From the NCBI GenBank assembly GCA_022843125.1, contig JALHOG010000016.1, positions 1-64,000 on the forward strand: a stretch of DNA of 64,000 nt, given 5' to 3'. The notes beneath the pieces were generated by a model. The model saw nothing but the letters and a program-made list of their open reading frames with translations. It did not search any database and had not been told where the DNA came from. This document shows, piece by piece, positions 31,961 to 49,416 of this stretch. The first letter of the stretch is position 1. Each line of letters opens with the position of its first letter. The translations under genes were made by a program, and so were the position numbers. The DNA is from Ilumatobacteraceae bacterium (GTDB taxonomy: Bacteria > Actinomycetota > Acidimicrobiia > Acidimicrobiales > Ilumatobacteraceae).

Positions 31961-31968
31961 CCAGCGAC

Positions 31969-32829
31969 ATGGGGCGATCCCTCGACGGCCGCGTCGCCGT
32001 CGTCACCGGGGCCGGCCGCGGTATCGGCCGGGCGCACGCGCTCGAGCTCGCTGCACGTGGCGCGACCGTGTTGGTGAACGACATCGGCGCCGAGCTCGAC
32101 GGAACTGGATCCACCACAGAGCCTGCCGCGGCTGTTGTGGCCGAGATCGTGGCGATGGGTGGCCGCGCTGCAGCTGACACCACCGACGTCGCGTCGATCG
32201 AGGGCGGCCGCCGAGTCGTCGAGCATGCGGTCGACGCGTTCGGTGCGATCGACATCGTCGTCAACAACGCCGGCTTCGCAGCCGGGGGTGGCACCATCGC
32301 CGAGCCGCATCTCGCCGAACTCGAGGCGCTGCTCGCTGTGCATCATCTCGCCGCGCTCGGCACGATGTCGGCCGCCTTCGCTCTCATGTCGCCCGAGCGC
32401 GGCGGCCGGATCGTCAACACGGTGTCGGAGGTCGCACTCGACGCCCGGTTCGATGCCGGCCTCGGCTACAGCGTCGCCAAGGCGGCCGTGTGGTCGGCGA
32501 CGCTGGTCGCAGCCCGCGAAGGCGCCGCGCTCGGCATCACCGTCAACGCGATCTCGCCGGGCGCGCGCACGCGGATGAACGCCGACCTCCTCGATGCCGC
32601 GTTCCGCGGCGGCGCGTCCGACGGACTCGACCTCGATCCGCGCCATGTGGCGCGTGTCGTTGCGTTCCTCGTGTCCGACGAAGCGGCAGACGTCACGGGG
32701 CGCGTGTTGCACGTCGCCGGTACGGCCGTGCGCGAGTACGCCACCCAGCGCACATCGCGATCCGAGCTGGTCGACCGTGTGACCGGATGGCTCGCAGCCC
32801 GGGACGAACCCTCGGAGACATCCGCGTGA
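31969..32829 (+). CDS. SDR family oxidoreductase
   Basis: This 286-residue protein has TGAGRGIGRAHA, NNAG, and a YxxxK pair in GYSVAK. The beta-2 insert VNDIGAELDGTGS places it in the same SDR group as the product of 24191-25108, related to multifunctional-enzyme dehydrogenases. The stop codon overlaps the ligase GTG (GTGA). It likely oxidises a hydroxyl group on the compound handled by this operon. Confidence 0.9.
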   Translation: MGRSLDGRVAVVTGAGRGIGRAHALELAARGATVLVNDIGAELDGTGSTTEPAAAVVAEIVAMGGRAAADTTDVASIEGGRRVVEHAVDAFGAIDIVVNNAGFAAGGGTIAEPHLAELEALLAVHHLAALGTMSAAFALMSPERGGRIVNTVSEVALDARFDAGLGYSVAKAAVWSATLVAAREGAALGITVNAISPGARTRMNADLLDAAFRGGASDGLDLDPRHVARVVAFLVSDEAADVTGRVLHVAGTAVREYATQRTSRSELVDRVTGWLAARDEPSETSA

Positions 32830-34493
32830 CGGCGATCACGCCACCCGACTTCCTCGTCGAGCACGGGCTCGTCGGGGTTGCCCCACGGCGGATCCCGGAT
32901 GTGCCGGCGACGGTCGCGGCGCTCGTCGATCACGCCGCCGACACCTACGGCGACGCGCCGGCATTGGCCGACCGGCGCCGACGCCTCAGCTTCATCGAGC
33001 TGCGCGAGGCGGTCGACCGGGCAGCCGACGTGCTCGCCGCGACCGGCGTGCGGCCGCTCGATCGCGTCGCGATGTCGCTGCCGAACACGACCGACGCCGT
33101 GATCGGCTTCCTCGCCACGATGCGGCTCGGCGCGATCTGGGTCGGCGTCAACACCCATCTCGCTCAGCCCGAGCAGCGGTTCCTGCTGGACGACAGCGGC
33201 GCGACGACCGTCATCGCGTCTCCGGCCGCGGTGTCGGGGCTGGCGCGCGACGGGATCGCGGGCGTCGCCGTCGACGTCGATGCCGTCGCTCCCTGGTGGC
33301 TCGCGGGCTCGCCCGAGCGGCACATGGCCGAGCAGCTCGACCCCGACGGGCCGGCCGCCATCGCCTACACGAGCGGGACGACCGGTCGCCCGAAGGGCGC
33401 GGTCCACAGCCAGCACAACATGCTCCTGCCGGCGTCTGCCCTGACCCGACAGGAGCCGCTGCCGCTCGTCCAGGGGACGATCCTGCCGCTCACGATCCTC
33501 AACATGCAGGTGCTGTCGACCGTGCAGTCGTTGCTGTGCGGCGGGGTGCTCGTCCCGATCGACCGCATGGATGCCGTCGGCGTGGCCGGCTGGGTCTCGG
33601 AGTTCGGCGTGCAGCGCATGTACGTCACCCCGCCGACCGTGTACGACCTGCTCACGCGGCCCGAGATCGACCCCGCGGACATCGCGACGCTCTCGCACCT
33701 GGGCGTCGGCGGGGCGAAGTGCCCCGAGGGCCTACGCGAGCGGTACCGCGAGCGCTTCGGGCGCGACTTCGTGTTCGGGTACGGGCTCACCGAGGCGCCG
33801 ACCTCGGTCACCGGTGCGGCGCCGGCGGGCGGCCCGTCGCCCCTGGGTTCGAGCGGGGTCGAGCGCGAGCACGTCGCGGTCACCATCCGCGACGCCGATG
33901 GCGCGGTGCTCGGCGCCGACCAGGAGGGCGAGATCTGCGTCGGTGTCACGTCGGAGGGGTGGTTCGCCGGGTGCTACTCGACGATGCTCGGGTACTGGAA
34001 CCACCCCGACCGGACGTCGGAGGCGCTGCGGCACGGCGTGCTCCACACCGGCGACGTGGGCCGGATCGATGGGGAGGGGATCCTGTGGGTGCTCGACCGT
34101 CGCTCCGATCTGATCCTGCGGGGCGGCGCGAACGTCTACCCGGCTGAGGTCGAGCGCGTCGTCGAGACGTTGCCCGAGGTCGCCGAGGTGGCCGTCGTGC
34201 CACGCGAGCACGAACGACTCGGCGAGGAGGTGATCGGGGTGATCCTGCCGGCGGCCGGCACGCCGGTGGCCGGCCTCGACGCGCAGGCGCTCGCCGAGGC
34301 ATGCGGTGCGCAGCTGGCTCGGTACAAGGTGCCCGCCGAGTGGTACGCGGTCGAGCAGTTCCCGCGCAACGCGATGGGCAAGGTCGTCAAACCGGTGCTC
34401 CGGCGGTGGCTCGCGGACGGGACGTGGCCCGACGGCCTCGCCCCACCGGTGCGGATCGGACAGCCCGTCGCGGATCCGATCCAATCGGCGTGA
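32826..34493 (+). CDS. AMP-dependent acyl-CoA ligase
   Basis: The 555-residue class I adenylate-forming ligase has AYTSGTTGRPKGA, FGYGLTEAPTS, VLDRRSDLILRGGANVYPAE (hinge) and FPRNAMGKVVK at the C terminus. The start is a GTG overlapping the SDR stop. Fatty-acid or aromatic-acid activation is likely; the specificity is unknown. A promoter for the next genes begins inside its last codons. Confidence 0.92.
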   Translation: MTAITPPDFLVEHGLVGVAPRRIPDVPATVAALVDHAADTYGDAPALADRRRRLSFIELREAVDRAADVLAATGVRPLDRVAMSLPNTTDAVIGFLATMRLGAIWVGVNTHLAQPEQRFLLDDSGATTVIASPAAVSGLARDGIAGVAVDVDAVAPWWLAGSPERHMAEQLDPDGPAAIAYTSGTTGRPKGAVHSQHNMLLPASALTRQEPLPLVQGTILPLTILNMQVLSTVQSLLCGGVLVPIDRMDAVGVAGWVSEFGVQRMYVTPPTVYDLLTRPEIDPADIATLSHLGVGGAKCPEGLRERYRERFGRDFVFGYGLTEAPTSVTGAAPAGGPSPLGSSGVEREHVAVTIRDADGAVLGADQEGEICVGVTSEGWFAGCYSTMLGYWNHPDRTSEALRHGVLHTGDVGRIDGEGILWVLDRRSDLILRGGANVYPAEVERVVETLPEVAEVAVVPREHERLGEEVIGVILPAAGTPVAGLDAQALAEACGAQLARYKVPAEWYAVEQFPRNAMGKVVKPVLRRWLADGTWPDGLAPPVRIGQPVADPIQSA

Positions 34494-34541
34494 TTCGGTA
34501 CACTGAATCATGACTCGCGGCGAAAGGGTGATGAATTCATG
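34491..34541 (+). promoter_or_regulatory. Operator-promoter with a 10-codon leaderless upstream ORF
   Basis: TGATTCGGTACACTGAATCA (34491-34510) is a 20-bp palindrome with one mismatched pair. It contains the -10 box TACACT (34499-34504). Five bases on, ATG at 34510 opens a frame Met-Thr-Arg-Gly-Glu-Arg-Val-Met-Asn-Ser-stop whose TGA overlaps the epimerase ATG at 34539. The centre GTACAC is shared with the palindrome at 8678-8695. Confidence 0.55.
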
Positions 34542-35405
34542 AGGGTGCTGGTGACGGGTGGACGCGGCAAGGTCGGCCGGCATGCCGCAGCGGCCCTCTC
34601 CGCCCACGGGCATCAGGTGGTGCTGACCGACATCGTGCCGGCGAGTTACGGCCCCCAACCGCGCGGTGAGCTGCCGTACCTCCGCGCCGACCTCACCGAC
34701 TACGGCGCCACGATCGGCACGGTGATGAAGGCCGACCCCGAGGTCGTGGTGCACACGGCGGGCATCCCCGACCCGTCTCACGACGCGCCGGCGACCATCT
34801 TCGCCAACAACACGCTCGCCAACTTCCACGTCGCCGAGGCGGTGGCCCGCACGGACGTGCGCCGGCTCGTCTACCTGTCGAGCGAGACCGTGATCGGACA
34901 CATCACGGCCGAACGTCCCGTCGACCCCGACTACCTGCCGCTCGACGAGGCGCACCCGGCCCGCCCGCAGGATGCGTATGCCCTCTCGAAGTCGGTCGGC
35001 GAGTCGATCTGCGACGCGCTCGTCCGGCGCTGCGACGCGACCGCAGTGTCGATCCGACCCTCGCTCGTGCTCGCCGCCGACGACTACGCGAACTTCGTGC
35101 CGCTGCTCCGCAAGCGACCGGCCGTCGGCCGGTTCAACTGCTGGTCGTACGTCGACGTCGACGACCTTGCCGACCTGATCCGGCTCGCGGCCGAGGCCGA
35201 CACGCCCGGCCACGAGGTCGTCTACGCCGCCCAACCCGACAACCTCGCCGGGCTGCCGCTCGCCGAGCTCGTCGAGCTCGGCTGGGGCGCCGATCGTCCC
35301 GAACTGCGCCCGATCAACCGTGACGACGCGGCGGGGATCAGTTGCGCGAAAGCTCGCGAGCTGTTCGGCTGGTCACCCACGCGCTCGTGGCGGGATCGCG
35401 TGTGA
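34539..35405 (+). CDS. NAD-dependent epimerase/dehydratase (extended SDR)
   Basis: This 288-residue protein has the N-terminal Rossmann motif VTGGRGKVG (residues 5-13), YLSSETVIG and the YxxxK pair in DAYALSKSVGE. It belongs to the extended SDR family acting on nucleotide sugars or other alcohols. In this context a beta-hydroxy compound is as likely as a sugar nucleotide. The start overlaps the stop of a 10-codon leader frame. Its own stop overlaps the next GTG. Confidence 0.88.
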   Translation: MRVLVTGGRGKVGRHAAAALSAHGHQVVLTDIVPASYGPQPRGELPYLRADLTDYGATIGTVMKADPEVVVHTAGIPDPSHDAPATIFANNTLANFHVAEAVARTDVRRLVYLSSETVIGHITAERPVDPDYLPLDEAHPARPQDAYALSKSVGESICDALVRRCDATAVSIRPSLVLAADDYANFVPLLRKRPAVGRFNCWSYVDVDDLADLIRLAAEADTPGHEVVYAAQPDNLAGLPLAELVELGWGADRPELRPINRDDAAGISCAKARELFGWSPTRSWRDRV

Positions 35406-36280
35406 ACGCCGGACATGGCCCGGCGATCGGCGTCATGTTCGCCAACGGCGCCCGCAGCGCCGACCCCGAGCACGCACTGGCCCTCGCGATCGCGGCGGAG
35501 TCGGCGGGGTGCGAGTCGCTCTGGGCGGTGCAGCACGTGGTGATGCCCGTGTCGCACGCGTCGGTGTACCCGTACTCCGAGGGCGGCACGGTCCCGGGCG
35601 GTACGTCGATCGCGATCCCCGACCCGCTGGTATGGCTCGCCTGGGTCGGTGCCCACACCCAGCGGATCCTCCTGGCGACCGGCGTGCTGGTGCTCCCACA
35701 GCAGCACCCGCTCGTCGTCGCGAAGCAGGTGGCGACGCTCGACCGTCTCGTCGGTGGGCGGGTGGTGCTCGGCGTCGGAGCCGGCTGGCTGCGCGAGGAG
35801 TACACCGCGCTCGCCGCCGAGTTCGACCGGCGCGGTGGCAGGATGGACGAGGCGATCGCGGTGCTGCGGGCCGCATGGGCGGCCGGTCCGTGCGAGTTCC
35901 ACGGCGACCACATCGACATCGACCCCGTCCACGTCGAGCCGAAGCCGGCGCGGCCGGTTCCGATCGTGATCGGCGGCCACAGCCGAGCGGCCGCTCAGCG
36001 CGCCGGCCGGCTCGCCGACGGGTTCTTTCCTCTCTCGCGTCAGGGCAGCGAGCTGGCAGAGCTCGTGACGGTGGTCCGCGAGGCGGCGGTCGACGCCGGG
36101 CGCGATCCGGACGCGATCGAGATCACGGCGGAGGCTCCGCGCACCGCCGCAGACGCCGAGACCCAGGTCGTGCTGGGCGTGCGGCGGATCGTCGTCAACG
36201 CCCCGCACCGCCCGACCGCCGACCTCGGCGGAGCGATGCAGGAGCTCGTGGCGTCGGCTCGCCAGCGCGCCGCGAGCTGA
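35402..36280 (+). CDS. Luciferase-like (LLM, F420-type) oxidoreductase
   Basis: This 292-residue TIM-barrel flavin or F420 oxidoreductase shows AIAAESAGCESLWAVQHVVMP, the LATGVLVLPQQHPLVVAKQVATLDRL segment (given in parts) and GGRVVLGVGAGWLREEY, hallmarks of the actinobacterial LLM class. F420 is the probable coenzyme given those motifs. The GTG start overlaps the epimerase stop (GTGA). It ends 9 bases from the convergent NadC-like gene. Confidence 0.9.
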   Translation: MNAGHGPAIGVMFANGARSADPEHALALAIAAESAGCESLWAVQHVVMPVSHASVYPYSEGGTVPGGTSIAIPDPLVWLAWVGAHTQRILLATGVLVLPQQHPLVVAKQVATLDRLVGGRVVLGVGAGWLREEYTALAAEFDRRGGRMDEAIAVLRAAWAAGPCEFHGDHIDIDPVHVEPKPARPVPIVIGGHSRAAAQRAGRLADGFFPLSRQGSELAELVTVVREAAVDAGRDPDAIEITAEAPRTAADAETQVVLGVRRIVVNAPHRPTADLGGAMQELVASARQRAAS

Positions 36281-36289
36281 CCGGGTCGG

Positions 36290-37114
36290 TCAGCCGATCG
36301 CCGGCGGCTCGACGACGAAACGCAGGTCCCACAGGTCGGCGTCGAGCACCGCGCGCCCGACATCCACGATCGACGCCCCGGCCGCGGCCACGGCGTCGAG
36401 GTCACCCGGGCCGACGCCGCCCGCAAAGGCCACCGCGACGTCCGACCCTGCGGATCGGAGGTGTCGCACCACGGCATGGAGCGTGTCGAGGTCGCCGGTG
36501 TCGACCATCACGATTCCGCACCCCGCCTCGGCCGCTCTGAGCGCGTCGTCGACGTCCATCACCTGCACGGCCACCGGGCCGTGACCGAGCCGCCGCCCGA
36601 CCGCGACGGCCGCTGACACGCCACCGAGTTGGGTCACGACGTTCTTGTCGACGTACACGAACTCGTCGTCGAGGAGCCGGTGGCCGATGCCGGCGACGTC
36701 GAGGCCGGCGCGCAACGCGGGCTTGAGCGCAGCGGGCAGCTTCTTCCAACCCCCGCAGACGACGCGCATGCCGTCGGGGGCGGCGTGGCGGATCGAGAGC
36801 GCGGTGCGGGCGACCCCGCCGGCGAACCCGAGCACGCCGAGCACGTGGTCTTCGGCGACGGCGAGCTCCCACGCCGTGCCGGTGACCTCGACGAGCGCAG
36901 TGCCCGCTTCGACGGCGTCGCCGTCTCGACGCAGCGCCACCCACGCTCCGGCCGGGTCCGGCGCCAGGCTCGGATCGAGCAAGCCGATGCCGGCGACGGT
37001 GCCCGGCTCGGCGGCCAGGACGACACCGCGACGGATACCGGTGGCGCCGGCGAGCAGTTCCTGGGTGATTCGACGCACGGGCGCCGCCCCGGCGTCGCCC
37101 GCGTGGGCGGTCAC
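36290..37114 (-). CDS. NadC-like (quinolinate/nicotinate phosphoribosyltransferase fold) protein
   Basis: This 274-residue protein resembles quinolinate phosphoribosyltransferase. GWKKLPAALKPAL (122-134) aligns with the TRKTxPGLR region, GHRLLDDEFVYVDKN (144-158) with HRxxLxDxxLIKDN, and DVGRAVLD is near the C terminus. The Arg of the quinolinate-binding Arg-Lys-Thr is Trp123, so the acceptor may differ from quinolinate. It is the last gene of the LarA-like operon; the GTG overlaps the preceding stop. It likely makes a pyridine mononucleotide. Confidence 0.75.
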   Translation of the reverse strand: MTAHAGDAGAAPVRRITQELLAGATGIRRGVVLAAEPGTVAGIGLLDPSLAPDPAGAWVALRRDGDAVEAGTALVEVTGTAWELAVAEDHVLGVLGFAGGVARTALSIRHAAPDGMRVVCGGWKKLPAALKPALRAGLDVAGIGHRLLDDEFVYVDKNVVTQLGGVSAAVAVGRRLGHGPVAVQVMDVDDALRAAEAGCGIVMVDTGDLDTLHAVVRHLRSAGSDVAVAFAGGVGPGDLDAVAAAGASIVDVGRAVLDADLWDLRFVVEPPAIG

Positions 37115-37878
37115 ACGAGCCCGGTCGGCGGGAGCGACCGGAACTGGTCGAGGTCGTGTCCGAACAGGAGGCGGCAGCCGTCGTCGCGCAGCGATGCGAG
37201 CATCCGCATCGAATCGAGTTGCAGGTCGCGGTCGTAGGCGTGGACCGGGACCGTCATCGTGTCGAGCATGTGCCCGAAGTAGACGCAGTCGGATGTGAGT
37301 ACCACGGGGCCGGACGGCAGCTCGACCCGGAGTGCCTGATGGCCCTTGGTGTGGCCGGGGGTAGGGAGGCACACGACCGATCCATCACCGAACACGTCGT
37401 GGACGCCTTCGACCAGCTCGACGTCGTGGCCGATGTCGAAGTCGTCGGGATTGTAGATGCCCGCCTCGACCAGGCGGGGGTGATGGCCGGCCGACCACTC
37501 GTCGGCCTGCACGATGAGGCGCGCATGGGGCAGCTCTGCCGTGCCGCCGGCGTGGTCGAAGTGGAGGTGGCTGATGACCGCGATGCGGACGTCTTCGGGC
37601 CGATAGCCGGCCGCGGCGAGGCGCGCTGCGAGCTCTTCACCAGGCGTGTAGTCGATCGTCGAGGTGTCGAACACGCCGGCGATGCGGTCGGTGCCGTGCT
37701 GGAGATCGGGGTGCATGCCCGTGTCGAACACGATGACGCCCGAAGGATGTTCGACGACCCACGCCGGCACCGGGGAGATCGCCGTGTCGAACTCGCCCGT
37801 GATCTCGGCGAGCGACATCGTGAGCCGCCCGATCTCGAGTGGGACGAGCCGGGTCGCCCCCCGGTGTTCGGCGGCCAT
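37111..37878 (-). CDS. Metallo-beta-lactamase-fold hydrolase
   Basis: The 255-residue protein has the dinuclear zinc motif SHLHFDHAGG (His104, His106, Asp108, His109), TPGHTKGHQ and SDCVYFGH. It is close to the AHL-lactonase/quinone-type MBL branch, so an ester, lactone or thioester is a plausible substrate. It overlaps both neighbours by 4 bases within the LarA-like operon. Its role there, perhaps product release or phosphoester hydrolysis, is inference. Confidence 0.88.
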   Translation of the reverse strand: MAAEHRGATRLVPLEIGRLTMSLAEITGEFDTAISPVPAWVVEHPSGVIVFDTGMHPDLQHGTDRIAGVFDTSTIDYTPGEELAARLAAAGYRPEDVRIAVISHLHFDHAGGTAELPHARLIVQADEWSAGHHPRLVEAGIYNPDDFDIGHDVELVEGVHDVFGDGSVVCLPTPGHTKGHQALRVELPSGPVVLTSDCVYFGHMLDTMTVPVHAYDRDLQLDSMRMLASLRDDGCRLLFGHDLDQFRSLPPTGLV

Positions 37879-39308
37879 CAGCCCAGGCCTCGCTGCGCGA
37901 GCCATTTCGGGAGCGCGACGTCGCGGACGTGAGCCGCCACGTCGGGCGCTCTGGCGAGGAGGTGCTCGCCGAGCGCACGCGAGACGTGCAGCGCGCCCGG
38001 CGTCGAGTCGAAGACGATGACGTGGTCGACGCCGGTGGTTCGGCGGGCGGCGGCGACGGCGTCTGGGAGTGACGCCTCGATCGCTGCGCGGTCGCCGAGC
38101 CACGGCGAGCACGGGTCGCCGATCAGCCAATCGGCCGCCGGCCCTTCGACCAGGAACGTCGGGACACGGCGGGTCATCATCGTGTACGGGACGCCACCGG
38201 CCATGTAGTTCATCACCTGGGCGCGGATCGCCGGGTTGAACTCGAGGGTGAGCCCAGGGGTGTCGGGCAGTCGTGACGCGAAGCCCTTGAGCAGGGCGAG
38301 GTTGTCGAGATCGAGGAAGTCGACCTGCGCGTACATCAGGCAGTCGAACGCGATCCCGCCGCCGTAGGAGTACATGTGGCAGCCGTGGCCGTCGAACAGC
38401 GCGATCACGTCGTCGATCTCGGCCATCAGTCGCATCAACGTGCCATAGTGCCGCAGCACGTTGGCCGTGATGCGGCCGTTCAGCGCGTCGAGGTCGAGGT
38501 CGGCGTCGACGCCGATCACGCCCTCGGGTGTGGTGTCGAGCACGATCGTGCCGGCGTAGCGCTCCTGCACGAAGTCGCTCTCGAACACCGCCCTGGCGAC
38601 CATCTGACCCGTCCGCGGCCCCCACGCGAAGTGGTACGCCGAGCGGGTCTCGAGCCGGGTGTAGCCCATCCCGAACGGCTTGTGGAGCCGGTCGATCATC
38701 CGATGGAGGTAGCCCTCGCGCATCTCCGCCACATGGGTGTGGACGAAGTGGTCGGCGGTGAACAGGTCGCGGGTGAGCCAGAACGGCCCGACGCGCGTGT
38801 CGATCTCGACGCCACGACCGATCTGCGGGCACTCCTTGGCGTCGCCGAAGCGGCCCGGCAGGTCGTAGATCCGCATCCAGTCGGGGTTCTCGATGTGTCC
38901 CATCGACTCGGCGATCCGGAGCCGCACCGTGCACCCACGTGTGGCGACGAGGTGGTCCCGGGTCTCCTCGAGCATCGCCACGTAGGCGTCGCCGCACAGG
39001 AAGAAGCCGTGCGGGTTGGCGATGAGATCGACCGTCGAACCAGGGCTGATCCGGCTCCAGTCGGATCTGGTGAGCGCAGCGCGCGCCCGCTCGCGAACCG
39101 CGGTGTCGTCGGTGGGCCCGAGCGTCGGGTCGGACGACCAGATCGGGAGCGGGAGCGACGGGTCGATCGCCCGCACCGGCAGCGCCACGATGTCGTCGAG
39201 CTCGACGGCCCGCATCGCCACCACCGAGGCCGGGTCGCGACCGGTCCAGGTGCGCTGGAAGGGTGGTGGTGCGAGTGGCTCGATGAGCCCGACTGGTGCG
39301 CCGGTCAC
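37878..39308 (-). CDS. LarA-like protein B (nickel-pincer racemase superfamily, divergent)
   Basis: This 476-residue protein shows, by eye, the layout of lactate racemase LarA: IANPHGF (96-102) for the SDHTR strand, RIAESMGHIE (131-140) for the ATGFHR strand with His138 in place of His108, and Lys210-x15-His226, exactly the Lys184 to His200 spacing that holds the nickel-pincer nucleotide. The Gly-Gly-Arg before Lys is absent, and Tyr200 replaces His174. It ends LPKWLAQRGLG, like its paralogue at 41488-42885. The substrate is unknown. Confidence 0.6.
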   Translation of the reverse strand: MTGAPVGLIEPLAPPPFQRTWTGRDPASVVAMRAVELDDIVALPVRAIDPSLPLPIWSSDPTLGPTDDTAVRERARAALTRSDWSRISPGSTVDLIANPHGFFLCGDAYVAMLEETRDHLVATRGCTVRLRIAESMGHIENPDWMRIYDLPGRFGDAKECPQIGRGVEIDTRVGPFWLTRDLFTADHFVHTHVAEMREGYLHRMIDRLHKPFGMGYTRLETRSAYHFAWGPRTGQMVARAVFESDFVQERYAGTIVLDTTPEGVIGVDADLDLDALNGRITANVLRHYGTLMRLMAEIDDVIALFDGHGCHMYSYGGGIAFDCLMYAQVDFLDLDNLALLKGFASRLPDTPGLTLEFNPAIRAQVMNYMAGGVPYTMMTRRVPTFLVEGPAADWLIGDPCSPWLGDRAAIEASLPDAVAAARRTTGVDHVIVFDSTPGALHVSRALGEHLLARAPDVAAHVRDVALPKWLAQRGLG

Positions 39309-39973
39309 GGCTGACCCCCCTTCGGTGCGAACTCGCTGAAGTCGCCGCTGAGCACCCGCAGGTCGCTGTCGAGCGGGTAGTGCGAGAAGGCTTCGCGGAC
39401 GTCGTCGGCGACCTCGCCGTCGGCGAGCAGTCCGAGGGCCGTGGCCGCGATGCCGTACCACTGGAACCCTCGTGCAGGGTTGCGCGGGGCGTCGCCGTGT
39501 CCGGCGGCCGCGAGGAGTTGGAGGATCGGCTGGTGGCACAGTTCGGTGCAACCGGTGCGCGCGCCGGTGGCGAGCGACAGCGCCTCGGGGGAGTGGGCGC
39601 CGTTCAGGATCGCGGCGGCCAGCTCGGCACCGGTGGTCTCGGCGCACATGCAGATCAGCTGCTTGCTCCCGACCCCGGCGGCCATGCACAGCGCCCGGAT
39701 CTCGTCGGCGTCGGCCGAGGCCACGTCGGTGCCGACCGTGAACGGCTCGGTGAGCGGGTGCATCACGATCGCCTCGTCGGGGCAGATCTCGAGGCAGTTC
39801 TGGGCGTTGTAGCAGTCGGGTTCGGCGAGTTCGACGATGCGGCGATGGGTGCCCGCCTCGTCGGCGCGCCGGTCGCGCAGTGTGAGCGCCACGGTGGGGC
39901 AGACGTAGACGCACAGCGCGCAACCGGTACAGCGCTCGGCGATGATCTCCGCGACCATGCGGACGGTCTTCAC
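39305..39973 (-). CDS. FeS protein B: ferredoxin-like domain plus BFD-like [2Fe-2S] domain
   Basis: This 222-residue protein has a [4Fe-4S] motif C15-x2-C18-x2-C21-x3-C25, then a second motif with only three Cys (54, 60, 64), and a BFD-like set C108-x-C110-x31-C142-x3-C146. It is homologous over its length to FeS protein A (42882-43571), which has two full ferredoxin motifs. GTG start overlaps the previous stop. It probably passes electrons to, or stabilises, LarA-like protein B encoded next. Confidence 0.83.
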   Translation of the reverse strand: MKTVRMVAEIIAERCTGCALCVYVCPTVALTLRDRRADEAGTHRRIVELAEPDCYNAQNCLEICPDEAIVMHPLTEPFTVGTDVASADADEIRALCMAAGVGSKQLICMCAETTGAELAAAILNGAHSPEALSLATGARTGCTELCHQPILQLLAAAGHGDAPRNPARGFQWYGIAATALGLLADGEVADDVREAFSHYPLDSDLRVLSGDFSEFAPKGGQP

Positions 39974-40908
39974 ATCGCGCCCTTCGTGTCGTGCTGGTGC
40001 TGGTGCTGGTGACGGTCGTCGGGATGCCGGTGCTGGTCACGCCACAGGTCACGGATCGGCGCGGCGACCGCTTCGGCGATGGTGGCGGGTCCTGCGCCGG
40101 CAGCGAGCGCGGCCAGCAGCGCCGGCATCGCGGCGCGCACCTCGCGCGTGGGGCCGGGGAGTGCGACGACGATGGCGCCGCCGACATCGCCCGCGGCGAC
40201 GCGGACGTGAGGCTTCACGTGGCGACCGTGACCCACCTCGTAGGTGGCGAGCACCGCGGTCGCGATGTCGGGGGCGATCAGCTCGAGCGCTTCGATCGTT
40301 CGGTCCTTGTCTTCGGCTCCGACACCGCCGGTGGTGATGACGACACCGTGGCCGTCCTCGACGAGTCGGGCGACACGGCCGGCGATCGAGCGTTCGTCGT
40401 CGCCCACGACACCGCCGAACGACACCTCGTAGCCGGCGGCGGTTGCGATCTCGGTGATCGACTCGAGGTTGGTGTCGTGCACGCGGCCGTCCTGCACCTC
40501 ACCGCCGGTCGACACGACGGCGATCCGGCGGGCGATGTAGGCACGCAGGTTGGCGTCGAGCGCGGTCGCCGCGGTGACGACCTCGTCGGCCTGCTCGCGC
40601 GGGACGCCGAGCACGCCGAGCACGCCGCGACTGTGGACGTCGGCGTCGTCGGCCACGGTGATCCCGGCGACAGCCCCGACGGCAGCCAGGAGATCGCCGG
40701 AGCGGCCGACGATGTCTTCGAGCCGCACCCGGCGGCTCACGAGGTCGAGTACCAGATGATCGCCACGGACGTCGGTGACGAACACCTCGTCGATGCCGAC
40801 GTTGAGCGCCCGTGCCGCGGCGGCAGCGACGTCGGGCAGCCGGGCGCCGTCGGTGGTGACCCCGGTGAGCCAGAGCTCGCTCTTGTCGAACAGGTCGAGC
40901 TCAGGCAT
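39970..40908 (-). CDS. MoCF/CinA-fold nucleotide-binding protein with His-rich C-terminal tail
   Basis: In this 312-residue protein, residues 128-260 form a molybdopterin-binding/MoaB-CinA-type domain: VVSTGGEV, DTNLES, TTGGVGAEDKDRTIEAL and LPGPTREV. The N-terminal 125 residues are not recognised. The tail 292-306 has six His (293, 295, 300, 302, 304, 306), like nickel-storage tails of HypB or UreE. CinA-type MoCF domains can split ADP-ribose or dinucleotide pyrophosphates. A role in metal loading or in trimming a pyridine dinucleotide is inferred. Confidence 0.8.
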   Translation of the reverse strand: MPELDLFDKSELWLTGVTTDGARLPDVAAAAARALNVGIDEVFVTDVRGDHLVLDLVSRRVRLEDIVGRSGDLLAAVGAVAGITVADDADVHSRGVLGVLGVPREQADEVVTAATALDANLRAYIARRIAVVSTGGEVQDGRVHDTNLESITEIATAAGYEVSFGGVVGDDERSIAGRVARLVEDGHGVVITTGGVGAEDKDRTIEALELIAPDIATAVLATYEVGHGRHVKPHVRVAAGDVGGAIVVALPGPTREVRAAMPALLAALAAGAGPATIAEAVAAPIRDLWRDQHRHPDDRHQHQHQHDTKGAM

Positions 40909-41491
40909 GGTGGGCCATCGCATCCACGGACGGGACAAGCGCGTAGAGGCTGGCGACGGCAGTTCGACATGGTGCCGGAACGGTCCGCGGTGGGCGCCGC
41001 CCACCGGCCACGGTGAACCGGATCTGCGTGGACGACACCGGCGGCACGTCGACCGCCAGCCACCCGACACCGTCGATCCGATCGACCCCGCCCACCGCGT
41101 CGCCGCGCCGGGGCACGGCCCACAGGTGGGCGCCGGCGAGGCGGTTGCGTGCGTCCCACCGATCGAGGTGGCGGGCGCTGTCGCTACCGAACACGACGTG
41201 GACCTCGTGACCTCCGGCTCGCAGGTCGGCCACCGCGCCTGCCAGCCCGCCACCGAGCCCGATCTCCGCGGCTTCGTGCAACTGCGGATCGTCGGCGGTC
41301 GCGCGGCGGACCAACTCCTGGCGGTCCCGGTATGACGCGACCGGGGCGGCCCGATGGCGATGGCCGGGATCGACGAGCAGGACGCCGTGGCTCGCTTCGA
41401 GCGCAACGAGCGCGCCCCGGATCAACGTCAGGTGCCCGTGGTGCACCGGATCGAACGTGCCGCCGAGCAGGACCACCTGACCGTCGGTCAT
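40901..41491 (-). CDS. NadD-like nicotinate-nucleotide adenylyltransferase family protein
   Basis: This 196-residue nucleotidyltransferase has the GGTFDPVHHGH signature (residues 10-20), a FGSDSARHLDRW segment matching the NadD GxDxxxxxxxW region, and the C-terminal VSSTQIR motif. NadD joins nicotinate mononucleotide to AMP, giving nicotinic acid adenine dinucleotide. It overlaps its upstream neighbour by ATGA and its downstream neighbour by 8 bases. As a second copy beside LarA-like genes it is probably dedicated to cofactor synthesis. Confidence 0.8.
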   Translation of the reverse strand: MTDGQVVLLGGTFDPVHHGHLTLIRGALVALEASHGVLLVDPGHRHRAAPVASYRDRQELVRRATADDPQLHEAAEIGLGGGLAGAVADLRAGGHEVHVVFGSDSARHLDRWDARNRLAGAHLWAVPRRGDAVGGVDRIDGVGWLAVDVPPVSSTQIRFTVAGGRRPPRTVPAPCRTAVASLYALVPSVDAMAHHA

Positions 41492-42885
41492 GCGAGACCT
41501 CGCTGGGCGAGCCACTTCGGCAGCAGGACCTGCTCGACCTCCCGGTCGACCGCCGGGGCCCGCTCACGGAGCACGTCGGCCATGGATTCGTTGCAGGTGA
41601 TGTGCCCGTAGCTGCCGTCGAACACGATCACGCGATCGGTGCCGCCCCTGGTGCATGCCATCTCGATGCCCTGCGCGACGTCGTCGACGACTGTCGCGCG
41701 ATCGATCAGGAGCGGGTTCGTCGGGTCTTCCCGCCACAGCTGCGCCTGATCGTCGCCGACGATGTACATCGGGCTGCTGAACGGCATCGTGACGTAGGGG
41801 ATGCCGGCGCCGACCCACGCCTGGTTGACGACGATGCCGCGCAGCGACTTGTTCCGTGTGAAGTTGACCGAGTTGCCGGGCTCCTGCAGGAAGCCCGCGA
41901 CGACGGGCACGTCGAGATCGAACGAGTCGTGGTGGTTGGTGAGCAGGACCCCGAAGATGATGCCGCCGGCGTGGAGGTAGTAGCCCCACCGGCCACCGTC
42001 CCAGACGGCGACGCAGTCACCGATCTCGGCGAAGAGGCGCTGCATGCGGCCGTAGGTGGCGAGGTGTCCGGCGGTGATCCGGCGATCGATCGCGTAGAGA
42101 TCGTCGGTGGCATCGACGCCGATCACGCCGGCGGGCGAGGTGCGCAACACCGATGAGAACGTGTAGCGGGCCTGGACGTAGGCGGAGTCGAACAGGGCGC
42201 GGGGGATGATGCTGCCGCTCCGGTTGCCGAACAGCGAGTGGTACACCGAGCGTGTCTCGAAGCGCGCATACGACATGCAGAACGACTTGAACGACTTGTA
42301 CAGCAGCCGGTTGAAGTACATCTCGCGCGGGTCGTCGTAGTAGGCGTGGATGAAGAAGTCGGCATCGAACGCTCGCTGCACGAGGTACATCGGCCCGATC
42401 GCCGTGTCGACCTCGACGCCACGGTCGAACGGCCCGAGACCCTTGACCTTGCCGTCGAACGCCTCGTCGAAGCCGAAGTGATCGCGGACCTCATCGGCTT
42501 CCTGGAAGCCGCGGTAGATGGCGAGCCGGAGGCGCACGTCGCGGCAGCCGGTGCGCTCGACCACGACCTCGCGGATGGTCTTCACCATCTCGGCGTACGG
42601 CAGGCCGCCCATCAGCCCGAATCCGTGCTCGGAGGCGAGGATGTTGACGCTCGAGTCGGCCGTGATCTTCGACATGTCGACATCGGCCAGCGCGGCACGG
42701 GTCGTGGCCCGCACGATGTCGAGATCGGCGGCGTCGCCCTGCGTGATCGGGGCGTCGAAGCTCGGGAACAACTCGGTGACGCTCACCGACGTCATCGACG
42801 GCAGCATCGCGACGTGCGGGCGTGGCTCGGGGCCGTACTCGGACGGCATGAACGCCGGCGGGAGCAGTGCGGGTCCGTGGTTCAT
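41488..42885 (-). CDS. LarA-like protein A (nickel-pincer racemase superfamily, divergent)
   Basis: This 465-residue paralogue of the 37878-39308 product has NILASEHGF (81-89) for the LarA SDHTR strand, RLAIYRGFQE for the ATGFHR strand (no His), and Lys200-x15-His216, the same spacing as LarA Lys184/His200. Tyr190 lies 10 residues before the Lys, where LarA has His174. Both paralogues share ARFETRSVYH/TRLETRSAYH and end LPKWLAQRGL. It overlaps FeS protein A by ATGA, so they likely form a complex. Confidence 0.6.
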   Translation of the reverse strand: MNHGPALLPPAFMPSEYGPEPRPHVAMLPSMTSVSVTELFPSFDAPITQGDAADLDIVRATTRAALADVDMSKITADSSVNILASEHGFGLMGGLPYAEMVKTIREVVVERTGCRDVRLRLAIYRGFQEADEVRDHFGFDEAFDGKVKGLGPFDRGVEVDTAIGPMYLVQRAFDADFFIHAYYDDPREMYFNRLLYKSFKSFCMSYARFETRSVYHSLFGNRSGSIIPRALFDSAYVQARYTFSSVLRTSPAGVIGVDATDDLYAIDRRITAGHLATYGRMQRLFAEIGDCVAVWDGGRWGYYLHAGGIIFGVLLTNHHDSFDLDVPVVAGFLQEPGNSVNFTRNKSLRGIVVNQAWVGAGIPYVTMPFSSPMYIVGDDQAQLWREDPTNPLLIDRATVVDDVAQGIEMACTRGGTDRVIVFDGSYGHITCNESMADVLRERAPAVDREVEQVLLPKWLAQRGLA

Positions 42886-43571
42886 GAAGCGTCCTTGCGT
42901 CCTGTCGTCAGCGCGTCGATGCGTGCCCGGCGATGGGCTTCCGGGTCGTCGGGTCGGGCCGGCGGGGTGAACGCCGGCAGCGGGCCGTATCGCTGTGTTG
43001 GATCGAAGACCAGACGGTCCTCGTCGATGAAGGCGTCGGGGTAGGCGGCGCGGGCGGCGTCGGAGACGTCCCACAGCGCGATGGTGCACGGGTACCAGCG
43101 GTGGCCCTTGGGCGTCGAGACGTCGGCGCCCGCCGCCTGGAGCAGTCGCAGCGCCGGCGCCACGCAGTAGATGCCGCACCCCGACCGCATCCCGGTCATC
43201 TCGGAGACCTCGTCGAGGTTGCTCGCGCCCTTGACGATCGCTGCCGCGATCTCCGATGCCGGCGTCAACGTGCAGACGCACACCGAGATGGCGGCGTCGA
43301 GCCCGGCACGATCGAGCAGCGCCGTCACCTCCGCCTCGTCGACCTCGTCCGGTCGCACCGTCTTGACCAGTGGCTCGGCGCGCTCGGTCATCCACATGAT
43401 GTCCTCGGGGCACCGGTCGACGCAGCGCCCGCAACCGATGCACAGCGGGTCGTCGATGACCGCCTTGCGATCGACCATCGTGATCGCCCCACTCGGGCAC
43501 ACGAGGTCGCAGAGCTTGCAGCCGGTACACGGATCGGCATCGAGCTCGGCGTAGAACCTGATGGACGCCAT
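42882..43571 (-). CDS. FeS protein A: two [4Fe-4S] motifs plus BFD-like [2Fe-2S] domain
   Basis: This 229-residue protein has two ferredoxin motifs (C15/C18/C21/C25 and C44/C47/C50/C54) and a BFD-like set C98-x-C100-x31-C132-x3-C136 with the same spacing as FeS protein B. A Trp-Tyr-containing C-terminal region (RWYPCTIALWD) also matches. AAAGGA precedes the ATG. It is translated just after the aldo-keto reductase gene (13-base gap) and overlaps LarA-like A by ATGA. Confidence 0.85.
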   Translation of the reverse strand: MASIRFYAELDADPCTGCKLCDLVCPSGAITMVDRKAVIDDPLCIGCGRCVDRCPEDIMWMTERAEPLVKTVRPDEVDEAEVTALLDRAGLDAAISVCVCTLTPASEIAAAIVKGASNLDEVSEMTGMRSGCGIYCVAPALRLLQAAGADVSTPKGHRWYPCTIALWDVSDAARAAYPDAFIDEDRLVFDPTQRYGPLPAFTPPARPDDPEAHRRARIDALTTGRKDAS

Positions 43572-43584: not shown

Positions 43585-44562
43585 TCATTGGAAGCCCACG
43601 ACCGGGTGCGGCGTGTACGGCTGCTCGAGGAGTGCGATCTCCTCGGCGGACAGTGCGACATCGACGGCTGCGACGGCGTCGTCGATGTGCTCGGGTTTGG
43701 TGGCGCCGACGATCGGCGATGTGACCCACGGCTTCGCGAGGAGCCACGCCATCGCGATCTGCGCCCGGGGCAGGCCGCGAGCCGCAGCCACGCCCGCGAC
43801 CGCTTCGACGATCGTGCGGTCGCTGGCCGAGGTGTCGTACAGGGTCTTGCCGAACTCGTCGGACTCGGACCGGGCGGTCGCCGTATCCCAGTCGCGGGTG
43901 AGCCGCCCGCGGGCGAGTGGGCTCCAGGGCAGCACGGCGACACCCCGGTCGGCGCACAGCGGCAGCATCTCGCGTTCTTCCTCGCGGTTGAGCAGGTTGT
44001 AGTGGTTCTGCATGCTGACGAACTGGGAGATGCCCGCGAGCTCGGACGTGTAGAGCGACTTGCTGAACTGCCAGGCGAACATCGACGAAGCACCGATGTA
44101 CCGCACCTTGCCGGCGGCGACGGTGTCGTGGAGCGCCTGCAGCGTCTCCTCGATCGGCGTGCGCGGGTCCCAGCGATGGATCTGGTAGAGGTCGATGTAG
44201 TCGGTGCCGAGTCGGCGAAGGCTTGCGTCGACCTCGGTCATGATCGCCTTGCGCGACAGCCCGATCGCGTTGCGGCCCTTGCGCATCGGGCCGTGCACCT
44301 TGGTCGCGATGACGACCTCGTCGCGATTCGCGAAGTCGCGGAGTGCCCGCCCGACGATCTCCTCGCTCGACCCGAGCGAGTACACGTTGGCGGTGTCGAA
44401 GAAGTTCACGCCGGCATCGAGGGCGCGCTTGATGAAGGGGCGGCTCGCATCCTCGTCGAGCGTCCAGCTGTGCGAGCCGGCGCTCGCGTTGCCGAAGCTC
44501 ATGCAGCCGAGACAGATCCTCGACACTTCCAATCCGGTCTGTCCCAGACGGACGTACTTCAT
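43585..44562 (-). CDS. Aldo/keto reductase
   Basis: This 325-residue (beta/alpha)8 NADPH-dependent reductase has the catalytic tetrad visible as Asp-Tyr in DTANVYSLGSSE, Lys in ATKVHG and His in YQIHRWD, with the closing GATKPEHIDDAV phosphate-binding motif. It reduces an aldehyde or ketone. It overlaps the TetR gene by ATGA and precedes the FeS/LarA-like genes, so it may act on the same hydroxy/keto substrate as the LarA-like enzymes. Confidence 0.92.
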   Translation of the reverse strand: MKYVRLGQTGLEVSRICLGCMSFGNASAGSHSWTLDEDASRPFIKRALDAGVNFFDTANVYSLGSSEEIVGRALRDFANRDEVVIATKVHGPMRKGRNAIGLSRKAIMTEVDASLRRLGTDYIDLYQIHRWDPRTPIEETLQALHDTVAAGKVRYIGASSMFAWQFSKSLYTSELAGISQFVSMQNHYNLLNREEEREMLPLCADRGVAVLPWSPLARGRLTRDWDTATARSESDEFGKTLYDTSASDRTIVEAVAGVAAARGLPRAQIAMAWLLAKPWVTSPIVGATKPEHIDDAVAAVDVALSAEEIALLEQPYTPHPVVGFQ

Positions 44563-45825: not shown

Positions 45826-47190
45826 TCATCGTGTGACGAGCCGCTGATACTCGTCGAGCGCGTCGACCAGCCCCGCGGCGACAGCCCCGACATCCGGAAC
45901 GCGGGTCGGGTCGACCATGATGCCGAGATCGAGGTGCTCCCCGAGTCGCCGTGAGGTGATGTTCAGGAATCGACCCCCACCGATGATGGGCGTCGGGTGG
46001 TTGGCGAGCAGACGGCGGCCCGCGAATGTGAGTGTTGCATCGGGGCCGGGGACGTTCGACAGGCTCACGTTGCCGGGCAGCACCGCGGCGCCCGGCGGCC
46101 GTTCGGCGAACTTCGAGCGCCGGTCGCGGGCACCGAAGGGCCGGTCCGGAGCATCGAGCATCATCTCGTCCCAGGGCGTTCGCAAACGCTCGGCCGCCAT
46201 CGATGCCTGGATGGCCCTCAGGCGTTCGACCGGGTCGTCGACGTCGGTCGCGAGATGTGGGTGCAGTGCGACGATGCGATTGCCGAACGGGCCGTGCTCG
46301 GGCCGCCGGTAGCTCCGCGCGGAGTTCGCGACGATCGGTGTCTCCGGAAGGTCGTCGAGCTCGATGAGCGTGCGGCGCACGGTCGACGCTGCGATGGCGA
46401 GGAAGATGTCGTTGACCGTGCCGCCGAACGCCGCTGCGGTCGAACGGACCCGCCCGAGCGGGAGGCTGATGGCTCTGAAGGCGCGGTGCTGCGATGTGTC
46501 GCCCGACATCCGGAGCACTGGCGTGCGCGCCCTCCGGGGGAGCGAGCCGCTCTTCAGCACAGCGAGTGCCTCGTCGGCTCGTGCCCGATGGAGCGTCCGA
46601 GCCGCTTCATCGTCGGCGAAGCGCCGCTCGGCAGCGCGGAGCCACGCTGCGTCGGATGGGAGGGTGGTGTCGAACTCGCGGGGAGGGCAAGCCGGCGCCT
46701 CATCGCTGAGCAGCCGCACGATCGTCTGGAAGCCGATCCCGTCTGCCACGGCATGGTGGACCTTCAGCAGCATCGCAGACCGTCCTGCTCCGACGTCGTC
46801 GATGACGAAGCATCGGAAAGGCGGACGGCTGAGGTCGAGTCGCTCCATCGCCTGGGTTGCGACGAAGGCGTGGAGTTCGGGAGTCGTCATCGCGGCGTCG
46901 ATCGACGTCACGTGATGGTCGAGGTCGCACGATGCGACATCGACCCACGCATCCGAGTCGTATCCACCGGGTGCCTGGCGAAGCACCGAGAGCAACGGTG
47001 TGCCTGGTAGGCGCTGTGCGAGGTGCGTGCGCATCCGCTCGGAGAAGTCGGCGACATCGCGGCCGCTCTCGAACAGGAGCAGGGCGCCGATGTGCATCGG
47101 TGTTGCCTCGGTGTCCATCAGGACCATGAAGTGGTCGTCCGGTCGCAAGCGGTGGATGCCGCGATCGGGTTCGACGAGTGACTGGTGCAT
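45826..47190 (-). CDS. WS/DGAT-family O-acyltransferase
   Basis: The protein is 454 residues with the ATG at 47190; a GTG at 47205 adds five. The active-site motif HHAVADG is at 145-151, preceded by TPMHIGALLLFE and SRPPFRCFVIDD. The family makes wax esters or triacylglycerols from acyl-CoA and fatty alcohol or diacylglycerol, typical storage chemistry of actinobacteria. It is divergent from an alpha/beta hydrolase gene. Confidence 0.9.
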   Translation of the reverse strand: MHQSLVEPDRGIHRLRPDDHFMVLMDTEATPMHIGALLLFESGRDVADFSERMRTHLAQRLPGTPLLSVLRQAPGGYDSDAWVDVASCDLDHHVTSIDAAMTTPELHAFVATQAMERLDLSRPPFRCFVIDDVGAGRSAMLLKVHHAVADGIGFQTIVRLLSDEAPACPPREFDTTLPSDAAWLRAAERRFADDEAARTLHRARADEALAVLKSGSLPRRARTPVLRMSGDTSQHRAFRAISLPLGRVRSTAAAFGGTVNDIFLAIAASTVRRTLIELDDLPETPIVANSARSYRRPEHGPFGNRIVALHPHLATDVDDPVERLRAIQASMAAERLRTPWDEMMLDAPDRPFGARDRRSKFAERPPGAAVLPGNVSLSNVPGPDATLTFAGRRLLANHPTPIIGGGRFLNITSRRLGEHLDLGIMVDPTRVPDVGAVAAGLVDALDEYQRLVTR

Positions 47191-47421
47191 CCGCCGTGCT
47201 ACCACCTGTCACCGAAGCGTGCGTCTGTCTCGCAGACATCGATCCCGCTCACGAGGGTTCCTCTCTCCGGTCGGTCTTCGGTCGCCGATGCAGCGGTCAC
47301 TCTCGCCGGATCCACCGGAGCGGGAGCGATCGGTGTCCAACTGGGCGCACTTGGACGTCGGATCGCTCGGTTTGCAGTGCCAGGACTACGTTGCGCTCAG
47401 TTCGGACAGCCAGGGGGCGTC

Positions 47422-48474
47422 ATGCGACAGGTCACACTCGACATCGATGTCTCGGATGCAGCGGGGTCGGGTGAACCACTGCACACGCGGGTCACGGTCA
47501 CCCTGCCCGAACCCGATGCCGTGTCGAGCCCTCCGATCGCGTGCTTCGGCTTCCCCGGCGGGGGCTACAGCCGCGGGTACTTCCATCTCGACGTACCCGA
47601 TGCGCAGCAGGCCGACACCGCTGGCGGCCAGGCCGCGTGGCACGCCCGGCGCGGCTGGGTGTTCGTGGCCTGCGATCATCTCTGCGTCGGCGAGAGCAGC
47701 ATGCCGGTCGAGCTCGACGACGTCTCGTTCGAGGTGATGGCAGCCGTCAATGCCGCCACCGTCGAACGTGTCACCGCGCTGCTGGCGAGTGGTGAGCTCG
47801 ATCCCGGCTTCCCGCCGCTCGACGGCATCGTCCGGATCGGGATCGGACAGTCGATGGGCGGCTGCCTGTTGATCGTCCAGCAAGGGCAGCACGCCACGTT
47901 CGACGGAGTCGGCGTGCTCGGCTACAGCGCGATCCACACCGTGCTCGCGCTACCCCCGGGCACGCCGCCGATCGCGATGCCGTACCTGCCTCGTGGCACC
48001 AGGTTCAGTCTCGACGTCACGCTCGCCCGAGCGCAGGAGAACACCGGGGCGGAGCTCCCGGCCGGCGCGGCGACGGCGGCCGATCTGCCGTTCACCACGT
48101 GGGGCTTCCACATGGACGACGAGCCGCAGGACATCGTGATCGCCGACATGGTCGACTTCCCGATGCGGCGCCGGACGTCGCCGTGGCCGTCGTGGGCGTC
48201 GGCGACGCTGCCGCCGTGCAGCATCTCGATGCTGTCGCCCGGTGTGGTGGCTCCGGAGGCGGCGATGATCACCGCGCCGGTCCTCGTCGTCGCCGGCGAG
48301 CGCGACGTGGTGCCCGACCCGAAGGCCGAGCCGAAGGCGTATCAGCGCTCGTCGGACGTGACCGTGGTGGTGTGGCCGAACATGGCGCACATGCACAACT
48401 TCGCCTCCACCCGGGCGGGGTTCTGGAACCGGATCCACGTGTGGGCCGAAGGTATCGCCCGCCAGCGCGCCTGA
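47422..48474 (+). CDS. Alpha/beta-hydrolase family protein
   Basis: The protein is 350 residues. The nucleophile elbow is GQSMGG (142-147, Ser144), and the oxyanion motif GFPGGGY is near residue 43. A VVAGERDVVPDP segment carries the Asp, and the final His is in NMAHMHNF. The ATG at 47422 is preceded by CAGGGGG. It could be a lipase or esterase linked to the storage-lipid acyltransferase on the other strand, but its substrate is unknown. Confidence 0.85.
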   Translation: MRQVTLDIDVSDAAGSGEPLHTRVTVTLPEPDAVSSPPIACFGFPGGGYSRGYFHLDVPDAQQADTAGGQAAWHARRGWVFVACDHLCVGESSMPVELDDVSFEVMAAVNAATVERVTALLASGELDPGFPPLDGIVRIGIGQSMGGCLLIVQQGQHATFDGVGVLGYSAIHTVLALPPGTPPIAMPYLPRGTRFSLDVTLARAQENTGAELPAGAATAADLPFTTWGFHMDDEPQDIVIADMVDFPMRRRTSPWPSWASATLPPCSISMLSPGVVAPEAAMITAPVLVVAGERDVVPDPKAEPKAYQRSSDVTVVVWPNMAHMHNFASTRAGFWNRIHVWAEGIARQRA

Positions 48475-48588
48475 CGCCGGCGGGCGGCAGTCGGCCGCGC
48501 GGTTGGTCACCCGTTCCGACAGTCGCTCGTCGGTCGTGCACACTGAGGCGGATGGGAGCTGGGGCGCACTCACCGGACTGGTGGGAAC

Positions 48589-49416
48589 ATGGCTGACTAC
48601 GAGTGCATCGCGGTCACCCACCCGGCTCCGGGCGTCGCCCAGGTCACGCTCAACCGTCCGCAGGTCGCCAACGCGCTGAGCCCGACGCTGTTCGCCGAAC
48701 TCGCCGTTGCGTTGAAACAGATCGAACGTGACGACGACATCGGAGCGTGGGTGCTGACCGGGGCGCCGCGGCTCGACGGTCGCCCCTGGTTCAGCGCTGG
48801 AGCGGACCTGAAGGAGTTCGTCGCCGCGTCACCTGGCACCGTCGACCCCAGCGCGGTCATCGACGACATCGACGAGTCGCCCAAGCCCTCGATCGCCGCG
48901 ATCGACGGGCTGTGCACCACGGGCGCGCTCGAGCTCGCGCTGGCGTGCGACATGCGCATCGTCGCCGCCACGGCCCAGTTGTGTGACTGGCACCTCAGTC
49001 GGCTCGGAGCGGGGATCGGTGCGTGGGGCGCGGCCACACGCCTCGCCCGTCTCGTCGGTCTCCCCAAGGCAACCGAGCTGCTCCTCACGGGCGACGTGAT
49101 CGACGGAACGGAAGCGGCTCGGATCGGCCTCGCGAACCGCGTCGTGGCGTCGGCCGACCTGCTCGAATCGGCTGTTGCGCTGGCGACGACGATCGCCGGC
49201 AAGCGCTCCGAGGGGGTGCGGTTGACGATGGAGTTCCTCCATCAGCAATCGGCCCTCTCCAAGCACGATGCGTTGCGCCTCGCCGAACGGATCAGTTCGG
49301 TGATGCGGATCGATCGTCGCTTCCCGGACATGTTGGAGCGCGTCTACGAGCGAGGCGACGAGACGACCACACCCCCGACCAGCGCGCCGTCTGGCGCGCC
49401 CACCGATCCCGAGTGA
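48589..49416 (+). CDS. Enoyl-CoA hydratase/isomerase (crotonase family)
   Basis: The protein is 275 residues with VTLNRPQVANALSP, FSAGADLKEF (first oxyanion loop) and DGLCTTGALELALACD (second loop, Ala-Leu-Glu in place of the usual Gly-Gly-Gly stretch). It is followed by a 73-residue zinc ribbon and the hydantoinase-like A/B genes with gaps of 12 bases and -4, so it is the first gene of a five- or six-gene unit. Confidence 0.9.
   Translation: MADYECIAVTHPAPGVAQVTLNRPQVANALSPTLFAELAVALKQIERDDDIGAWVLTGAPRLDGRPWFSAGADLKEFVAASPGTVDPSAVIDDIDESPKPSIAAIDGLCTTGALELALACDMRIVAATAQLCDWHLSRLGAGIGAWGAATRLARLVGLPKATELLLTGDVIDGTEAARIGLANRVVASADLLESAVALATTIAGKRSEGVRLTMEFLHQQSALSKHDALRLAERISSVMRIDRRFPDMLERVYERGDETTTPPTSAPSGAPTDPE

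Follow-up and report, generated by a model that had tools for sequence, protein, structure and literature searches.

In the racemase LarA, Lys184 is the attachment point of the pincer cofactor, the nickel-pincer nucleotide (NPN), His200 is a nickel ligand, and His108 and His174 are the acid/base residues. To our knowledge, all characterised NPN enzymes are isomerases. Here we describe two LarA-like proteins, LA1 and LA2, encoded in a 64,000-nucleotide window (positions 1 to 64,000 of contig JALHOG010000016.1, assembly GCA_022843125.1) from an Ilumatobacteraceae bacterium; they are the two paralogues in which an initial annotation, made from the sequence alone, had seen a retained LarA cofactor site with changed chemistry. 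LA2 (41488..42885, minus strand) has 465 aa and LA1 (37878..39308, minus strand) 476 aa by translation, with 39% identity between them. On balance, the evidence leans towards a new LarA-fold branch of ferredoxin-linked oxidoreductases in which NPN binding and a redox reaction are predicted. Other reactions had already been proposed, in the portion available of the 2020 superfamily paper, for homologues lacking a catalytic histidine (PMC7583248). In about 15% of surveyed genomes, larB, larC and larE are reported while no larA is recognised, and the cofactor user in them is presented as an open question in the accessible part of that survey (PMC11796402). The available text of the isoprene reductase paper mentions ordinary lactate racemases only (PMC10134865), and among the papers listed by open-access literature searches on NPN and LarA, on ferredoxin-linked, redox or sphingomonad LarA relatives and on lar clusters, no title or abstract opening describes a ferredoxin-linked branch.

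Profile searches did not place the family. None of 20 LA members matched Pfam at E values up to 10, Lar_N (PF09861) included, and NCBIfam (E up to 1, window pair only) returned nothing for LA1 and just a 12-bit match to an unrelated family for LA2. Sequence searches of solved structures gave no matches or chance matches only. The AlphaFold2 model of LA2, built from a 20-sequence alignment (pLDDT 86.4, pTM 0.89), has the two-domain LarA fold as computed. With VIA-align, ranks 1–12 are all LarA-type chains, with Z scores of 16.4–19.4, and the next chain scores 6.1. The titles of eleven of these 12 name LarA or a racemase. The one exception, 4NAR from T. maritima, was deposited under the name of putative uronate isomerase; it matches a LarA homologue at an E value of 2.4e-5 and is counted as LarA-type on that basis. 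Foldseek gave only three matches to the same model at E 0.001 or better, all lactate and malate racemases (best 3.9e-9). Given its identity to LA2, LA1 probably shares this fold.

Both translations contain Lys-x15-His preceded by Tyr-x9-Lys, formed in LA2 by Tyr190 (42316-42318), Lys200 (42286-42288) and His216 (42238-42240), and in LA1 by Tyr200 (38709-38711), Lys210 (38679-38681) and His226 (38631-38633), all on the minus strand. These residues, as well as the GHIE motif of LA1, with its histidine, and the GFQE motif of LA2, agree with the initial annotation. In an alignment of 40 homologous LA sequences, near duplicates included (e.g. those of loci L003 and L011), Lys200, His216, Arg187 and His180 of LA2 are each invariant. 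The annotation had called for such an alignment, and for the lysine and histidine it bears the proposal out (40/40 each). With one invariant lysine and two invariant histidines in about 465 residues, simple arithmetic gives a chance of about 0.4% for a pair at +16. The residue 11 positions after the lysine is threonine in 36 LA proteins and serine in four, and it is threonine in all five aligned LarA homologues. Unforced local alignments also put lysine on lysine and histidine on histidine, neither alignment being significant.

The acid/base positions behave differently. The initial annotation had taken a tyrosine as the equivalent of His174; counting back from the lysine does lead to Tyr190, while the unforced profile alignment places the invariant Arg187 opposite His174, three residues away. 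It had also named variation of lysine, histidine or tyrosine among homologues as speaking against it, and half of this was found, position 190 being Tyr in 30, His in seven and Asp in three of the 40. The seven His190 proteins carry His-x9-Lys-x15-His, the full LarA spacing. Position 127, the GHIE/GFQE site, is Phe in 21, His in nine and other residues in 10. In the register of the annotation, 25 of the 40 proteins lack both acid/base histidines; the first occurs in nine, the second in seven and both only in L008. LarA-type 2-hydroxyacid racemases/epimerases have two such histidines; the window pair lacks this combination and is not filed among them. A residue map between LA and LarA derived from the profiles serves only as a register; it moves at the His108 position, by one residue between the two profile alignments, and at that of Arg75.

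The residues aligned with LarA Arg75 (Phe 36, Tyr two, Leu two, no Arg; two non-significant alignments that disagree there) and with Asp72 (Glu 22, Pro eight, His seven, Gln three; non-significant alignment) are apparently not kept. This, together with the non-significant sequence similarity to LarA, would fit a LarA fold that has lost its cofactor, the lysine and histidine serving otherwise, for example in a ferredoxin-binding scaffold or an NPN-free enzyme. We consider this very unlikely, since exactly the tether-type lysine and the ligand-type histidine are invariant in all 40 proteins, and since larB/C/E and a weakly NicO-like gene lie inside the sphingomonad LA clusters, LarC being absent from the 148 other genomes sampled in the family of G204, the genome of L009.

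Each LA gene is accompanied by a ferredoxin-type gene. FdA (42882..43571, minus strand; start codon chosen in this analysis) lies upstream of LA2 with a 4-base overlap and encodes a 2x[4Fe-4S] ferredoxin with a BFD-like [2Fe-2S] domain; FdB (39305..39973, minus strand), of the same architecture, overlaps LA1 from upstream by 4 bases as well. Such a gene precedes all 40 LA genes on the same strand, within 200 bases in 39 cases and at about 400 in L083. Fer4 and Fer2_BFD domains were detected in 7/7 ferredoxin-type proteins put through Pfam. Across an alignment of 38 rows, three of them apparently chance joiners, 12 cysteines are conserved, each of them in 29–36 rows, a set consistent with two [4Fe-4S] clusters plus one [2Fe-2S] site; six rows have Asp at position 18 and six have Ala at position 47. 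In L012 and L015 the ferredoxin module forms one protein with a GltD-like FAD/NAD(P)H oxidoreductase, and L077 resembles this fusion (tblastn only). The widespread lack of both acid/base histidines and the constant ferredoxin-type gene uphold, in outline, the changed chemistry that the initial annotation had suggested; its proposal of a retained cofactor gains from the invariant lysine and histidine, the fold and the linked larB/C/E genes, and what did not hold is the constancy of the tyrosine.

It is possible, though in our view rather unlikely, that LA proteins are instead NPN-dependent isomerases or epimerases with altered acid/base residues, and that the task of the iron-sulfur protein is confined to reducing or repairing the cofactor or aiding its maturation. 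The NPN enzyme activities given in the available parts of two papers are racemizations and epimerizations (PMC7583248; PMC11796402), and LarA groups lacking His174 are described in the accessible portion of another (PMC12611868). Within LA, a His-x9-Lys-x15-His clade persists (7/40), and L008 has both acid/base histidines in the annotation's register. What argues against isomerases is that every LA gene comes with a separate iron-sulfur partner gene, even where two paralogues share one cluster; a maturation factor acting generally would not have to be duplicated for every enzyme. In two loci, moreover, the partner is an NAD(P)H oxidoreductase.

Genes for NPN biosynthesis, larB, larC and larE, share a locus with eight of the 40 LA genes, in five of 33 loci: L007, L009 and L010 from sphingomonads and L004 and L005 from mycobacteria. 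The sphingomonad gene order is FdA-LA2-MogA-like-NicO-like-NadD-LarE-LarB-LarC-QPRT-like (QPRT, quinolinate phosphoribosyltransferase). The NadD-type gene of L010 was seen by comparison of open reading frames, tblastn with the divergent NadD of the window having missed it, and in L007 the contig ends within the QPRT-like gene. The LarE, LarB and LarC assignments in L009 are confirmed by NCBIfam; the NicO-like gene of these clusters scores 15–16 bits, under the 27.7-bit NicO cut-off. In mycobacteria, LarB/C/E are encoded about 7.5 kb from LA1 in L004 and around FdA-LA2 in L005. At the genome level, LarC (PF01969) was detected in 28 of 29 distinct LA genomes tested (G209 was removed as a duplicate of G010), LarE exceeded its cut-off in 14/14, and LarB lies beside LarC or LarE in L004, L005, L007, L009, L010, L040, L041, L042 and L044. 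In the family of G204, the sphingomonad genome of L009, LarC occurs in one of 149 genomes, and this one is the LA carrier G204 itself; the 148 others were surveyed for LarC and not searched for LA. Given that LarC is frequent in genomes without LA, we give weight solely to the sphingomonad case and to the physical linkage, and LarC-LA co-occurrence was rejected as evidence for the window's family and for the phylum of G207, a Desulfomonilaceae genome that contains L014. Because of the invariant lysine and histidine, the LarA-type fold of the LA2 model and larB/C/E in LA loci, it is likely that LA1 and LA2 retain NPN.

At five loci LA genes cluster with those for NPN biosynthesis, and at most loci a MogA-like gene is nearby; this would also fit LA as a part of the NPN assembly or delivery pathway that feeds another enzyme, not as a catalyst. 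This is most unlikely, given that LarB, LarC and LarE make NPN in characterised systems, according to the available part of the survey (PMC11796402), and that four LA copies in one genome and a catabolic neighbour particular to the His190 clade look like substrate diversification.

Several results weigh against an NPN-dependent, ferredoxin-linked oxidoreductase. LarC is common without LA: the window's family has it in 109 of 200 genomes, and in G207's phylum it occurs in seven of eight sampled genomes that have no LA match. There is also no LarC match in LA genome G400. The window's own larE-larB-larC sits on contig 46 and not on the contig of the window, and the same genome encodes another likely NPN enzyme (L021, NPN_iso_grp_22). 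The LA profile is not significantly similar to five LarA homologues (hhalign probability 1.1–1.3%), the global-mode profile alignment spans just 32 residues, and the N-domain score of 14.9 falls within 100 column-shuffled controls (mean 13.6, maximum 32.8; reversed control 11.7). The role of the ferredoxin could also lie in maturation and not in turnover. Searched with PF09861, seven of 14 distinct LA genomes show no LarA above the cut-off, a count that is no proof of absence because one of the seven, the genome of the window, encodes an NPN_iso_grp_22 protein scoring under this cut-off.

If LA proteins are ferredoxin-linked oxidoreductases, the invariant lysine (LA2 Lys200) would tether NPN and the invariant histidine (LA2 His216) would ligate the nickel. 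Each LA protein would work with its own ferredoxin-type protein, unlike the known isomerases. Electrons from NAD(P)H (or towards an acceptor) would travel via the [4Fe-4S]/[2Fe-2S] protein to NPN, which would give or take a hydride on the substrate, so that the outcome would be net oxidoreduction and not the return of a hydride to the same carbon. The two paralogues probably serve two steps of one catabolic pathway.

Eight overlapping frames follow one another in the window: FdA, LA2, NadD-like, MogA-like, FdB, LA1, a metallo-beta-lactamase-fold hydrolase and QPRT-like, the overlaps depending on start codons chosen in this analysis. The MogA/MoaB-fold protein (MoCF; 39970..40908, minus strand) is extended at its N terminus by about 120 aa and ends in a His-rich tail. 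It belongs to MogA/MoaB by fold and by its PF00994 domain (71 bits); residues 123-273 match MogA/MoaB/Cnx1G with Z up to 16.3, and residues 1-120 are barely covered by the fold comparison. Several MogA-like copies end in His-rich tails, which also occur in some nickel chaperones, and the most likely role of this protein is to load the cofactor into LA or to activate it there. The NadD-like nucleotidyltransferase (40901..41491, minus strand) scores under the NadD model cut-offs. The divergent QPRT-like protein (36290..37114, minus strand) stays below the nadC equivalog cut-off of TIGR00078 (74 versus 198 bits), with QRPTase_C at 44 bits, above the Pfam cut-off; it is possibly a nucleotide-binding or cofactor-modifying protein instead of NadC. 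Its G-x-x-Lys-Lys and Tyr-x-x-Lys-Asn motifs are invariant in 22/22 rows (window protein, 36290-37114, plus 21 relatives). For the NadD-like and the QPRT-like protein, the most likely role is supply or modification of the pyridine nucleotide precursor. A MogA-fold gene lies within 5 kb on the same strand of 33/40 LA genes and a QPRT-like gene of 27/40; some of the misses are near contig or stretch ends, and others (L012, L088) are not.

LarC of the three sphingomonad loci (L009:2228-2911, L010:2208-2891, L007:6287-6952) matches just the first 234–235 of 375 model positions. No second LarC part was reported elsewhere in these three genomes, and the gene that follows LarC is QPRT-like. The second half of LarC is its CTP-using part. 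We tentatively entertain, at somewhat less than an even chance, that LA proteins are the first non-isomerase NPN enzymes, with NPN catalysing net hydride transfer and connected to NAD(P)H by a dedicated ferredoxin, and that the MogA-like and QPRT-like proteins may make or insert a cofactor variant and might even replace the second LarC half not found in the three sphingomonads.

The remaining neighbours differ by clade. In the window, the metallo-beta-lactamase-fold hydrolase (37111..37878, minus strand) overlaps both of its neighbours and has a 37% identical relative in L009 and L010, and an aldo/keto reductase (43585..44562, minus strand) just upstream of FdA has a 64% identical relative beside LA1 in the same two loci. 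A 2-oxopent-4-enoate hydratase-like gene occurs in 7/7 His190 loci and in no other of 30 loci compared (in L012 at 318 bits, below the cut-off of 409 bits). The Asp190 loci contain MaoC-like and SMP-30-like genes and, by eye, CoA ligase and ABC transporter genes. Beside LA1 in sphingomonads there are a thioesterase, an old-yellow-enzyme-type oxidoreductase, the aldo/keto reductase and, by eye, a hydratase and an acyl-CoA dehydrogenase. These clade-specific neighbours suggest the breakdown of more than one kind of acid or CoA thioester and, differing as they do between clades, do not fix the substrate. Beside the His190-clade gene of L015, positions 12271-14177 encode acetaldehyde dehydrogenase and 4-hydroxy-2-oxovalerate aldolase, lower meta-cleavage pathway enzymes, both above their NCBIfam cut-offs. 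Window stretches 28879-36280 and 45826-51680 also look catabolic, with two Amidohydro_2 proteins, a cupin, SDR, an AMP-binding ligase, an NAD epimerase, a luciferase-like monooxygenase, WS/DGAT, an enoyl-CoA hydratase and hydantoinase A.

A genome scan gave 13 LA loci in Acidimicrobiaceae, Mycobacterium, sphingomonads, deltaproteobacteria and one Thermoproteota archaeon. Centre genomes included, the family is present in 3/200 genomes of the window's family, 8/396 of its phylum, 10/345 of the phylum of G207 and 1/300 of the archaeal phylum, this last being the centre genome itself. No LA relative was found in plasmid records. The midpoint-rooted tree has two deep branches, one made up of LA1 and seven relatives and the other containing LA2, and the His190 and the Asp190 sequences each form one fully supported group. 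The 8.9 Mb genome G436 holds four LA copies (including L071 and L072 on contig 141, and L088), three of them within about 14 kb.

LA is a LarA-fold candidate NPN user, one that Pfam misses. It sits with biosynthesis genes in three sphingomonad and two mycobacterial loci, so it could answer the missing-larA question for those lineages. A ferredoxin-linked NPN enzyme, if confirmed, would extend the cofactor to net redox chemistry, beyond isomerisation.

Compared with known systems, LA2 shares with LarA of Lactiplantibacillus plantarum (5HUQ) the two-domain fold (345 residues aligned, Z 18.4, rmsd 4.1), and LA shares with it the x15 spacing of lysine and histidine and the threonine 11 residues past the lysine (Thr/Ser in LA). 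It differs in having 14% identity, in lacking the two acid/base histidines in most members and in its missing PF09861 match, as well as in its ferredoxin-type, MogA-like and QPRT-like partner genes, the neighbourhoods surveyed being those of LA genes. The single-histidine LarA subfamily (9Q3K, 9Q3J) also lacks the His174 acid/base residue, as the available part of its description states (PMC12611868), and 9Q3K ranks first in the VIA-align comparison (Z 19.4, rmsd 4.7, 359 residues; rows within 1 are tied), with 10% identity to LA2. According to the same portion, that subfamily differs in having Asn at the lost histidine and in keeping the first catalytic histidine; its abstract points to carbohydrate metabolism, and no mention of ferredoxin was found in the accessible text (PMC12611868). 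The NPN_iso_grp_22 protein on contig 10 of the window's genome (L021:1216-2481), a probable further NPN user of this genome, scores under the Pfam Lar_N cut-off but has Lys-x15-His in common with LA; unlike the window pair, which no curated model matches, it is recognised by one (410 bits, cut-off 400). Finally, MoCF residues 123-273 share their fold with MogA/MoaB/Cnx1G and MoeA, the adenylyltransferase and insertase of the molybdenum cofactor, from which MoCF is set apart by its extra N-terminal region, by the His-rich tail of several copies and, in sphingomonads, by being surrounded by nickel-cofactor and not molybdenum genes.

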